Source of the DNA: Pseudideonella sakaiensis
GTDB lineage: Bacteria > Pseudomonadota > Gammaproteobacteria > Burkholderiales > Burkholderiaceae_C
Assembly: GCF_001293525.1 (NCBI RefSeq)
Contig: NZ_BBYR01000077.1
Coordinates: 1-64,000, forward strand
Length of the DNA: 64,000 nucleotides
Reading direction: 5' to 3'
Shown here: positions 21,401-30,085 of the stretch, one piece after another
Layout: each line of letters begins with the position of its first letter
Numbering within the stretch: position 1 is the stretch's first letter
Position numbers and translations under genes: made by a program
Notes under the pieces: model-generated
The model's input: only the letters and a program-made list of their open reading frames with translations
The model's database searches: none
Told to the model about the DNA's origin: nothing

Positions 21401-22942
21401 TCAGCCCTGGGCTGCCACCCGCTCGGTCTTGCTGTGCAGCTTGTTCAACGCAGCGAGGTAGGCTTTCGCCGACGCGACCACGATGTCCGGGTCCGCCCCG
21501 ACGCCATTGACGACCCGGCCGCCATGCTGCAGGCGGACCGTCACCTCGCCCTGGGATTCTGTGCTGCCCGAGGTGATCGCGTTGACCGAATAGAGCAGCA
21601 TCTCGGCCCCACTTCCGACACGCGACTCGATCGCCTTCAGGCTGGCGTCCACCGGCCCGTTGCCGTCCGCCTCGGCCCGGTGCTCCAGCTCGCCGGCCGC
21701 GAACACCACCGCGGCATGCGGGCGCTCGCCGGTCTCCGAGCGCTGCGACAGCGACAGCAGCCGGTAATGCTCCTGCTCGGCGGTGACGGTCTCGTCCATC
21801 ACCAGCGCGGTGATGTCCTCGTCGAAGATCTCGCTCTTGCGGTCGGCCAGGTCCTTGAAGCGCGCGAACGCGGCATTCACCTCCGCCTCGGACGCCATCT
21901 CGATGCCCAGTTCCTGCAGCCGCTGCTTGAAGGCATTGCGGCCGCTGAGCTTGCCCAGCACGATCCGGTTCGTGCTCCAGCCGACGTCCTCGGCGCGCAT
22001 GATCTCGTAGGTGTCGCGCGCCTTCAGCACGCCGTCCTGGTGGATGCCCGAGGCATGGGCGAAGGCGTTGGCGCCGACCACCGCCTTGTTCGGCTGCACG
22101 ACGAAGCCGGTGGTCTGCGAGACCAGCCGAGAGGCCGGCACGATGTGCGCGGTGTCGATGCCGACCTCGAGGCCGAAGTGGTCGCGGCGGGTCTTCACCG
22201 CCATCACCACCTCCTCGAGCGAGCAGTTGCCGGCGCGCTCGCCGAGGCCGTTGATCGTGCACTCGACCTGCCGCGCGCCACCGATCTTCACGCCGGCCAG
22301 CGAGTTCGCGACCGCCATGCCCAGGTCGTTGTGGCAATGCACGGACCAGACGGCCTTGTCCGAGTTCGGGATGCGTTCGCGCAGGTTGCGGATGAAGCTG
22401 CCGTAGAGCTCGGGAATCGCGTAGCCGACGGTGTCCGGCACGTTGATCGTGGTCGCGCCTTCGGCGATCACGGCTTCCAGCACGCGGCAGAGGAAGTCAG
22501 GCTCGGAGCGGTAGCCGTCCTCGGGCGAGAACTCGATGTCGCCCGACAGGTTGCGGGCGAAGCGCGTGGCCAGACGCGCCTGCTCGAAGACCTGGTCCGG
22601 CGTCATCCGCAGCTTCTTCTCCATGTGCAGCGGGCTGGTGGCGAGGAACAGGTGGATGCGCGTCGAGCGGCCGCCGTGCAGCGCCTCGGCCGCGCGGGCG
22701 ATGTCGCGGTCGTTGGCGCGCGCCAGCGAGCACACCGTGCTGTCCTTGATCGCCTGGGCGATCGCGCGCACGCACTCGAAGTCCCCGTTCGACGAGGCCG
22801 CGAAGCCGGCCTCGATGACGTCCACCTTCAGCCGCTCGAGCTGGCGCGCGATGCGCAGCTTCTCGTCGCGGGTCATCGAGGCGCCGGGCGATTGCTCGCC
22901 GTCGCGCAACGTGGTGTCGAAGATGATGAGCTTGTCGGCCAT
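21401..22942 (-). CDS. leuA: 2-isopropylmalate synthase (bacterial LeuA1 type)
   Basis: A 513-residue enzyme joining acetyl-CoA and 2-oxoisovalerate, first step of leucine synthesis. It begins [22 protein letters not shown] with the metal-binding and catalytic Arg-Asp. [16 protein letters not shown] gives the metal-binding histidines, and [12 protein letters not shown] the conserved glycine-rich segment. The C-terminal third ([22 protein letters not shown] ...) is the regulatory domain for leucine feedback. It starts only 14 bases after the end of the larger synthase gene on the same strand, so both are expected on one transcript. A terminator follows. Confidence 0.95.
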
Positions 22943-22956
22943 GGCGGTCTCCTGGG

Positions 22957-24687
22957 TCAGACGGTGGGGGCCGGATCGGCCTGCGGCGCGGGCGCGGCCG
23001 CGGCGGCGGCGGCCCAGCCGATGCCGGCGCGCTGCAGCCCGCTGAGGATGGCGCGCAGCGAGGCGCGCACGATGTCGGTGTCGATGCCCACGCCGAACAG
23101 CGTGCGCGAGCCCGCCGTGCCGGCCGCGCCGATGCGCAGCTCGAGGTAGGCCACGGCGCGCGCGTCGGCGCCGGCACCGATCGCGTGCTCGTGGTAGTCC
23201 AGCACGCGCAGCGGCTGGCCGCAGGCAGCCTCCAGGCCCTGCACGAAGGCGTCGATCGGCCCGGCCCCGCGCCCCTGCACCGGGCGGCGGACGCTGCCGA
23301 GCGTGGCCTCGGCCAGCAGTTGCACGCTGCCGTCCGGCTGGCCCGACAGCGTCGGCGTGCCCACGCGCGGCGCGCCGTCGAGCGCGTACTCGCGCTCGAA
23401 CAGCGCCCACAGGTCGGCGGCCGCGAGCTCGCGGCCCTCGACGTCCATCACCGCCTGCACCCGTTGGCTGAACTCGATCTGCAGGCGACGCGGCAGCTCC
23501 AGCCCATACTCGTTCTCGAGCAGGTAGGCGATGCCGCCCTTGCCCGACTGGCTGTTCACGCGGATCACCGCGTCGTAGCTGCGGCCGAGGTCCTTCGGGT
23601 CCACCGGCAGATAGGGCATGTCCCAGACATCACCGTCGCGGCGCGCGGCAAAGGCCTTGCGGATCGCGTCCTGGTGCGAGCCGGAGAAGGAGGTGTAGAC
23701 CAGGTCGCCGACATAGGGGTGGCGCGGGTGCACCGGCAGCTGGTTGCAGTGCTCGACGCAGCGCCGCACCTCGTCGATGTCGGAGAAGTCCAGCTGCGGC
23801 GAGACGCCCTGGGTGTAGAGGTTGAGCGCGATGTTGACCAGGTCGACGTTGCCGGTGCGCTCGCCGTTGCCGAACAGGCAGCCCTCGATGCGGTCCGCGC
23901 CGGCCATCAGCGCGAACTCGCCGGCCGCCGTGCCTGTGCCGCGGTCGTTGTGCGGATGCACCGAGAGCACGATCGCCTCGCGCCGCGCGAGGTGGCGATG
24001 CATCCACTCCACCATGTCGGCGAAGATGTTCGGCGTCGAGTGCTCGACGGTGGACGGCAGGTTGACGATGCAGGGCCGCTCGGGCGTCGGCTCCCAGACC
24101 GCGGTGACGGCATCCACCACGCGCTTGCTGAACGCGAGCTCGGTGCCGGAGAACATCTCCGGCGAGTACTGGAAGGTCCAGTGCGTGCCCGGCTGGCGTG
24201 CGGCGTGCTCGCGCAGCATCCGCGCATGCTCGGTGGCGAGCGCGACGATGCCGTCCTCGTCGAGGCCGAGCACCAGCCGGCGCATCACCGGCGCGACCGC
24301 GTTGTACAGGTGCACGATCACGCGGCGCGCGCCGACCAGTGATTCGAAGGTGCGCTCGATCAGGTGGGCGCGGGCCTGCGTCAGCACCTGGATCGTCACG
24401 TCCTCGGGGATGTGCCCCTGCTCGATCAGCAGGCGCACGAAGTCGAAGTCCGCCTGCGACGCCGACGGGAAGCCGACCTCGATCTCCTTGAAGCCGATCC
24501 GGACCAGCATCTGGAACATGCGCAGCTTGCGCTGCGGGTCCATCGGCTCGATCAGCGCCTGGTTGCCGTCGCGCAGGTCGGTGCTCAGCCAGACCGGGGC
24601 GCGGGTCAGCACGGCATCGGGCCAGCGGCGGTCGCGCAGGGCGACGGGAGGAAAGGCGCGGTACTTCGTCGAAGGATCGGTGAGCAT
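22957..24687 (-). CDS. leuA: 2-isopropylmalate synthase, long LeuA2 type
   Basis: A 576-residue enzyme of the longer synthase class (TIGR00970-like): [38 protein letters not shown] and [45 protein letters not shown] and the C-terminal regulatory domain are complete; the last 20 residues are a run of Ala/Pro. It catalyses the same step as the next gene, so the pair may have different feedback sensitivity. The start ATG at 24687 is preceded by an inverted repeat and by a leader peptide with an attenuator, which suggests control by charged leucyl-tRNA. Confidence 0.95.
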
Positions 24688-24723
24688 CGTGGGTTCTCGT
24701 GAAGATCGTCTTCGCAACCCACG
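24688..24723 (-). promoter_or_regulatory. Hairpin directly before the long leuA start codon
   Basis: CGTGGGTT and AACCCACG (24716-24723 and 24688-24695 on the plus strand) form an 8-base inverted repeat that ends at the ATG; a nested GAAGA/TCTTC hairpin lies in its loop. No strong ribosome binding site is visible outside the stem, so the structure could hide translation initiation. Confidence 0.5.
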
Positions 24724-24729
24724 GCCTCG

Positions 24730-24769
24730 AGAAAGACGAACGGCCCGCTGCAGGTTGCATACGGGCCGT
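24730..24769 (-). terminator. Attenuator terminator of the leucine leader
   Basis: On the minus strand ACGGCCCG (24769-24762) and CGGGCCGT (24747-24740) form an 8-base GC-rich stem with a 14-base loop, followed by TCGTCTTTC. It lies between the leader peptide and the long leuA gene, the place of an amino acid attenuator terminator. The T run is imperfect. Confidence 0.7.
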
Positions 24770-24796
24770 CGGATCAAGACGTGAGGACGTGCGTGA

Positions 24797-24856
24797 CTAG
24801 GGGACCCGGTGTGGTTCCTCTAGGGCTAGCAGCGCGAAGCAGGTCTCGAGCGTCAT
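24797..24856 (-). CDS. leuL: Leucine-rich leader peptide (leu attenuation)
   Basis: A 19-codon reading frame reading [19 protein letters not shown], ending in TAG. Four of 19 residues are Leu, three of them within four positions (CTG CTA GCC CTA). CTA is a rare leucine codon in such a GC-rich genome; two in a row of four codons would make the ribosome sensitive to the supply of charged leucyl-tRNA. The frame lies 20 bases after the pssA stop codon, is followed by a stem-loop terminator at 24730-24769, and precedes the long leuA gene. No clear ribosome binding site exists, but TACGAT nine bases upstream could start a leaderless RNA. Confidence 0.78.
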
Positions 24857-24865
24857 GAGGCGCGC

Positions 24866-24871
24866 ATCGTA
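24866..24871 (-). promoter_or_regulatory. Candidate extended -10 for the leucine leader
   Basis: On the minus strand TGC-TACGAT lies nine bases before the leader ATG, in the gap after pssA. The TG one base upstream makes an extended -10; no -35 is seen. Initiation would be at or just before the leader start codon. Confidence 0.4.
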
Positions 24872-24876
24872 GCACG

Positions 24877-29418: not shown

Positions 29419-29484
29419 GATTATCGCATCCCGCCGCGCCCCGCCCGGCGAATTCGGGGACCCTGCTCCCGCGATGCGATAATC
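29419..29484. promoter_or_regulatory. Mirrored divergent promoter region between ilvB and the sigma factor operon
   Basis: A perfect 12-base inverted repeat, GATTATCGCATC at 29419-29430 and GATGCGATAATC at 29473-29484, is separated by 42 bases. Each arm contains GATAAT pointing outward: plus strand 29478-29483 towards the sigma gene (start at 29519) and minus strand 29425-29420 towards ilvB. It can be read as two -10 elements or as paired sites of one regulator. No -35 box is clear. Confidence 0.5.
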
Positions 29485-29518: not shown

Positions 29519-30085
29519 TTGGCCACCGACAAAGAACTCGCCGACTTCCTGAAGAGCGTCGAAAAGCGGGCCTTCAAGCGCGCCAGCTATGCAGTGCGCG
29601 ACGAGGACGCTGCGCTCGACATCGTGCAGGACGCGATGATCCGGCTGGCCGAGAGCTACGCCGATCGCCCGGCCGCCGAACTGCCGCTGCTGTTCCAGCG
29701 CATCCTGTCGAACGCGACGATGGACTGGTTCCGGCGCCAGAAGGTGCGCGGCGCGCTGTTCCGCAATTTCTCGGAGTTCGAAGGCGCCGACGGCGCCGAG
29801 GATTTCGACATCCTCGAGACCCTGGCCGCGCAGGACGATGCCGGTCGGCAGGAAAGCGCCGCGGACAGCGTCTCGCGGGCGCAGATTCTGCTTTCGATCG
29901 ATGCCGAGATCGCCCAGTTGCCGGGGCGTCAACGCGAAGCCTTCCTGCTGCGTTACTGGGAGGAACTCGACGTCGCCGAGACGGCTGCCGTGATGGGGTG
30001 CTCCGAAGGCAGCGTGAAGACGCACTGCTCGCGCGCCGTGCACGCGCTGGCCAAGGCTTTGAAGCTTCGAGGGATATCGCTGTGA
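29519..30085 (+). CDS. ECF-type RNA polymerase sigma factor
   Basis: A 188-residue sigma factor of the RpoE/ECF class, started by TTG at 29519 (ATDKELADFLKSVEKRAFKRA). Region 2 has DEDAALDIVQDAMIRLAESY and FQRILSNATMDWFRRQKVR. An acidic linker follows. Region 4 holds LPGRQREAFLLRYWEELDVA and the recognition helix MGCSEGSVKTHCSRAVHALA. Its stop overlaps the next gene in a GTGA arrangement. In Burkholderiales this sigma is usually followed by the same DUF3619, DUF3106 and RDD genes; signal and regulon are unknown. Confidence 0.9.
   Translation: MATDKELADFLKSVEKRAFKRASYAVRDEDAALDIVQDAMIRLAESYADRPAAELPLLFQRILSNATMDWFRRQKVRGALFRNFSEFEGADGAEDFDILETLAAQDDAGRQESAADSVSRAQILLSIDAEIAQLPGRQREAFLLRYWEELDVAETAAVMGCSEGSVKTHCSRAVHALAKALKLRGISL

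Follow-up and report, generated by a model that had tools for sequence, protein, structure and literature searches.

The window, by which we mean the whole stretch of 64,000 nucleotides from Pseudideonella sakaiensis analysed here, carries on its minus strand, in order, ilvB, ilvN, ilvC, pssA, a short leader, a long-form leuA (TIGR00970) and a short-form leuA (TIGR00973). The leader region is the minus-strand gap between the pssA stop codon (24877) and the leuA ATG (24687). An earlier note on this DNA had placed a leucine attenuator at 24730-24856, just behind pssA, and the features that it named are all present there, on the minus strand. The 2-isopropylmalate synthases of long (TIGR00970) and short (TIGR00973) form lie next to each other at 21401-24687, and in relatives the attenuator is found 5' of either leuA type, long or short. 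Between ilvB and a divergent gene at 29519, which resembles a sigma-70-family factor, there is a perfect 12-bp inverted repeat (GATTATCGCATC and GATGCGATAATC, at 29419-29430 and 29473-29484), in a region that by eye has near-identical GATAAT -10 boxes and possibly two divergent promoters. The features discussed below are the following, in the direction of transcription.

24866..24874, minus strand: extended -10, TGC-TACGAT (TGCTACGAT), directly behind the pssA stop and 9 nt before the leader ATG; conserved in relatives
24797..24856, minus strand: leader ORF of 19 codons, ATG 24856 to TAG 24797; apparently leaderless, no Shine-Dalgarno sequence
24821..24832, minus strand: putative regulatory codons CTG CTA GCC CTA (Leu-Leu-Ala-Leu), from the CTA enrichment in leaders
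24797..24823, minus strand: segments 1 and 2, hairpin CUAGAGGAACC/GGGUCCCCUAG (protector), joining the last CTA to the stop codon in the MFE, ribosome-free fold
24803..24808, minus strand: antiterminator strand CGGGUC (segment 2), predicted partner of GGCCCG of the terminator, from fold probabilities and a conserved GGG
24740..24769, minus strand: predicted intrinsic terminator hairpin ACGGCCCG-UAUGCAACCUGCAG-CGGGCCGU, also pseudoknot stem S1, from sequence, alignments and fold (about -22 kcal/mol)
24750..24759, minus strand: terminator-loop strand (3b) UGCAACCUGC, partner of segment 5, from covariation and duplex energy
24730..24739, minus strand: U-rich tail UCGUCUUUCU, start of pseudoknot loop 3, from sequence
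24713..24722, minus strand: segment 5 GUGGGUUGCG, 3' of the termination point, partner of the terminator-loop strand (S2; duplex energy -15.3 kcal/mol)
22957..24687, minus strand: leuA long form, 2-isopropylmalate synthase (TIGR00970)

The predicted leader peptide and its promoter

BLASTN matches the region in 41 of 120 genomes of the same family, and a pattern scan of named and further family genomes gives 124 loci at which the conserved hairpin lies 5' of a leuA-like motif. Three of the 124 fall outside the loop pattern. The analysis covered 110 distinct leaders, drawn from Hydrogenophaga, Polaromonas, Ramlibacter, Roseateles/Pelomonas, Caenimonas, Rhizobacter, Piscinibacter, Acidovorax, Comamonas, Lautropia and other relatives. 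Leaders average 18.5 codons with 4.4 Leu codons, and their CTA codons are concentrated 7-11 codons ahead of the stop. At least one CTA is present in 109 of the 110, and at least two in 94.

The 19-codon frame of the window, with Leu-Leu-Ala-Leu encoded by two CTA codons as the earlier note had described, contains one additional Leu codon, CTC. That CTA is rare in this genome was also correct: measured against a background of six window genes and the leuA genes of relatives, it accounts for 0 of 219 Leu codons across the six neighbouring genes and for 17 of 4350 (0.4%) in the downstream leuA genes, as opposed to 228 of 485 Leu codons (47%) in the leaders. Both Leu and CTA codons are kept in relatives, which is the check that had been proposed for them.

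A TAnnnT hexamer ending 6-9 nt 5' of the leader ATG occurs in 109 of 110 leaders and is accompanied by an upstream TGn in 104. This count of apparently leaderless starts is helped by the use of a -10 box as one criterion in selecting the leader start. However, the TGnTAnnnT form is found at 0 of 2200 random upstream positions, and the enrichment is far too large to come from the criterion by which starts were chosen. A Shine-Dalgarno 4-mer is found in none of the 110 leaders, as against 69 of 109 leuA starts. The leader mRNA therefore looks leaderless, and we infer a transcription start on the leader ATG or no more than a few bases from it; a precedent is the Sinorhizobium meliloti trpL RNA, which begins with ATG (PMC7298713). 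The leader layout that the earlier note described is thus borne out, while the leaderless start had been overlooked there.

Predicted terminator and antiterminator

The GC-rich stem and T-rich tail followed by the synthase gene, as originally pointed out, correspond to ACGGCCCG/CGGGCCGU, to UCGUCUUUCU and to leuA with its ATG at 24687. In two alignments of relatives the terminator and the GGG of segment 2 are nearly invariant, which answers the question of whether the stem is conserved. In the 1:2 hairpin the last CTA codon is paired with the stop codon (CUAG...CUAG). To follow the alternatives we folded the RNA that a ribosome at a given position leaves free, up to just before the terminator 3' arm. 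Among relatives, the probability that GGCCCG is paired upstream is 0.88 for a ribosome stalled at the first CTA and 0.80 at the last CTA, as compared with 0.31 at the stop codon and 0.52 with no ribosome; the corresponding values in the window are 0.99, 0.99, 0.19 and 0.17. In these computed foldings, upstream capture of the terminator 5' arm is greater for the stall than for the stop codon in 109 of 109 leaders. When the RNA from the stall point to the terminator is shuffled, the capture probability is already 0.63, so that part of the stall signal is compositional, GC-rich arms pairing easily. The folding check suggested at the outset thus yields an antiterminator that depends on ribosome position.

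The region accordingly combines a leader ORF with Leu codons, a predicted intrinsic terminator before the first structural gene, and an antiterminator that, by computation, is exclusive with it and dependent on the ribosome, and the likeness to the known layout of amino acid attenuators claimed for it is supported, the Leu and CTA codons, the stem and the position-dependent antiterminator all having been found. We propose that the pssA-leuA gap very probably holds a leucine-sensing, ribosome-mediated transcription attenuator with its own promoter, the readthrough RNA of which forms a pseudoknot. In this model, when charged leucyl-tRNA is scarce the ribosome would stall at the rare CTA codons and cover segment 1; segment 2 (CGGGUC) would then capture the terminator 5' arm, GGCCCG, letting RNA polymerase continue into leuA. 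With plentiful leucine, the ribosome would reach the stop codon and cover segment 2, allowing the terminator to form, and in the absence of any ribosome the 1:2 hairpin would likewise leave the terminator free. RNA that is read through would carry segment 5, and its pairing with the terminator loop would give a pseudoknot some 25 nt 5' of the leuA start. If the switch works in this way, the leuA enzyme would be made only when leucine runs short.

As the hairpin is situated directly behind pssA, and a hairpin with a U-tail is a common end to an operon, it could instead be a mere terminator of the ilvBNC-pssA operon with the short ORF accidental. This seems very improbable, as the leader ORF, the CTA codons, segment 2 and the promoter are conserved together in more than 100 relatives and the element is also present 5' of the other leuA type. 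A hairpin and U-tail alone would prove little; it is the joint conservation of peptide, codons and hairpin, as read from the sequences, that does. The element proposed to sense leucine may all the same attenuate transcription that arrives from the operon upstream.

Pairing of the terminator loop with downstream RNA

The terminator stem had been described correctly in the earlier note, which overlooked the pairing of its loop with RNA further downstream. In the window, UGCAACCUGC forms a helix with GUGGGUUGCG whose duplex energy of -15.3 kcal/mol is matched by 0.3% of shuffles. Median distances are 15 nt from the terminator stem to the start of segment 5 and 26 nt from its end to leuA. In relatives the two strands differ together, as in the loop/segment 5 pairs ACCCGCAG/CTGCGGGT, ACCAGCAG/CTGCTGGT, ACCTGCAG/CTGCAGGT, AAACGCAG/CTGCGTTT, AAGCGCAG/CTGCGCTT, AACTGCAG/CTGCAGTT and ATCCGCAA/TTGCGGAT, and in ACCAGCGA/TCGCTGGA, where 7 of 8 positions pair; there are 27 distinct loop ends among such pairs, of which a few are chance-level matches.

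Swap tests, for which all sequences were used, give a pairing score of 19.96 for loops with their own partners, as against 14.92±0.38 (maximum 16.1) for swapped and 12.17±0.27 for shuffled partners. At least 7 contiguous pairs are formed by 39 of 69 distinct loops, compared with a mean of 11.5 and a maximum of 21 after swapping. When 54 sequences are aligned by MAFFT blind to structure, 93.5% of cells are paired, falling to 21-47% when the partner is slid; the first value is somewhat flattering because the 54 are a subset of 70 sequences with a 13-nt loop, from which some were removed by hand where segment 5 was not evident or the spacing was longer. Cells changed on both sides number 34 in that alignment and 9.4±2.4 in shuffles, counts which relatedness of the sequences inflates, although the swap tests by loop type are still clear. 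This strong compensatory change shows, at the level of sequence, that the pairing between loop and segment 5 is real. A protein-binding inverted repeat or a chance repeat is excluded as an account of segment 5, since both arms change together.

The pairing fits an H-type pseudoknot, the geometry of which is feasible (S1 of 9 bp, S2 with a median of 8 bp, L1 of 5, L2 of 0 and L3 of 15 nt). At least 7 contiguous pairs between loop and segment 5 are present in 109 of 150 sequences, and the pairing is absent or weak in 41 of 150 and lacking in several divergent lineages, so that we regard the pseudoknot as an accessory layer that is not essential to attenuation. Nine loci (L221, L222, L223, L228, L229, L236, L246, L248 and L255) have the leader and terminator without segment 5, and in some of them the loop is a different one, for example GUGAAAACAC.

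Since RNA polymerase reaches segment 5 only past the termination point, the pseudoknot is possible only in readthrough RNA, and a role for segment 5 in the termination decision is excluded. It might instead pair with the loop to form a second, backup intrinsic terminator. U-runs follow segment 5 in Hydrogenophaga- and Polaromonas-type sequences, and the T content is 0.33 after segment 5 as compared with 0.18 further on; however, at least 4 of 6 positions are T in only 20% of the sequences with pairing, and there is no U-run in the window or in Roseateles-type sequences. With a U-run in only 20%, a general second terminator is excluded, and we consider the backup role quite unlikely for the pairing as a whole. 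In five sequences of Hydrogenophaga or Polaromonas type (L050, L064, L101, L103 and L043) segment 5 runs into TTTTTT and has the look of a second terminator there.

It is also conceivable that leader RNA ended at the terminator works in trans, with its loop pairing with segment 5 of the leuA mRNA to give antisense-like repression when leucine is plentiful. The exposed loop of 13-14 nt, complementary to the leuA 5'UTR, would be a plausible start for antisense pairing, and attenuator RNAs can act in trans, as S. meliloti rnTrpL does (PMC7298713). However, the loop is present in cis on the same molecule, where proximity should win. Genome G044 carries two attenuator copies (L256 and L173), one for each leuA type and each with a matching loop and segment 5; by eye each loop pairs best with its own segment 5. 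Pairing in cis is therefore favoured, with cis and trans not fully separable from sequence, and we think action in trans unlikely.

Formation of the pseudoknot in cis on the readthrough RNA would place it just 5' of the predicted 30S binding place, so that translational control and mRNA protection are the likely options. Occlusion of the leuA Shine-Dalgarno sequence by the pseudoknot is unsupported, as the pseudoknot ends about 26 nt before the leuA ATG. Our guess is that there is a second, post-transcriptional layer on leuA, acting on the translation or stability of the readthrough mRNA. A two-layer switch, in which the hairpin first stops transcription as a terminator and then, in readthrough RNA alone, contributes one half of a pseudoknot by which leuA translation or mRNA lifetime is set to suit the position of the leader ribosome, is a tentative proposal to which we give somewhat less than even credence. 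If the pseudoknot does act, a terminator hairpin would be reused after failing, with regulation of transcripts already made. The natural covariants, together with the lineages without the pairing, are ready-made test constructs.

Distribution and relation to known systems

At E<=0.01 a covariance model has matches in 130 of 150 genomes of the family; for most of these E is below 1e-5, and the weakest are probably due to chance. The score of the window itself is not independent because the training sequences included it. In a sample of the order, confident matches outside the family are confined to genus g131 of family f10. By a plain pattern scan of the order the element had seemed less widespread than it is; with the covariance model it is seen in most of the family. 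Two weaker matches in the order sample that were inspected (L200 and L202) have no downstream leuA motif, and a class-wide scan gave no convincing further match, the one in G777 being without a downstream leuA motif.

A comparative study of proteobacterial attenuators from 2004, by Vitreschak and colleagues, reportedly dealt with gamma- and alphaproteobacteria. That leu leaders are best known from Gammaproteobacteria, as the earlier note stated, holds in part, since there are examples elsewhere: LeuL-like leaders containing rare Leu codons have been predicted for Campylobacter (PMC3847290), an attenuator peptide rich in leucine has been reported from Staphylococcus aureus (PMC5794164), and Actinobacteria have leuA leader peptides of another type, the LEU element (PMC1262725). 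A literature search covering few subscription papers found no betaproteobacterial leuA attenuator and no terminator-loop pseudoknot, and the attenuator is likely, though not proven, to be new in the Burkholderiales group. No Rfam family matches at its gathering score, and up to E 10 only three unrelated chance families appear. The family, including Hydrogenophaga, Polaromonas, Ramlibacter, Roseateles, Comamonas and others, offers a testable candidate for leucine control that is absent from Rfam.

Of the known systems, Escherichia coli leuL (Rfam Leu_leader, RF00512) shares with the window consecutive CTA Leu codons, a terminator before leuA and the same logic. However, the RF00512 covariance model gives no match to the window, the leuL terminator has a 4-nt loop and, by eye, no helix between loop and downstream RNA like that of the window, and the window leader differs in lacking a Shine-Dalgarno sequence and apparently starting at its own ATG. 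Campylobacter jejuni LeuL, likened here by its description, is also a Leu leader with rare Leu codons outside Gammaproteobacteria, in a distant lineage; unlike for the window element, the accessible part of its report describes no pseudoknot (PMC3847290). The S. meliloti rnTrpL/trpL leader mRNA is leaderless, as that of the window appears to be, and its terminated RNA is known to act in trans, but it responds to tryptophan rather than leucine, and pairing of a loop with downstream RNA is not mentioned in the accessible part of the source (PMC7298713).

The actinobacterial LEU element, also situated 5' of leuA, has both a Leu-rich leader and a pseudoknot (PMC1262725), and on these grounds the window element might work in the same manner, by control of translation or through a bound protein and not by termination. 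We regard this as highly improbable. The LEU element has no terminator, and in its base stem it is the Shine-Dalgarno box to which the Leu codons are paired (PMC1262725); this defining arrangement is not that of the window, which has a strong predicted intrinsic terminator and a conserved antiterminator strand, and in the MFE fold of which no Leu codon pairs with the leuA Shine-Dalgarno region. The two pseudoknots are built from different parts, that of the window joining the terminator loop to RNA beyond the terminator. Judged from its sequence, the window element is a case of predicted ribosome-mediated leucine attenuation that is distinct from both RF00512 and the LEU element.
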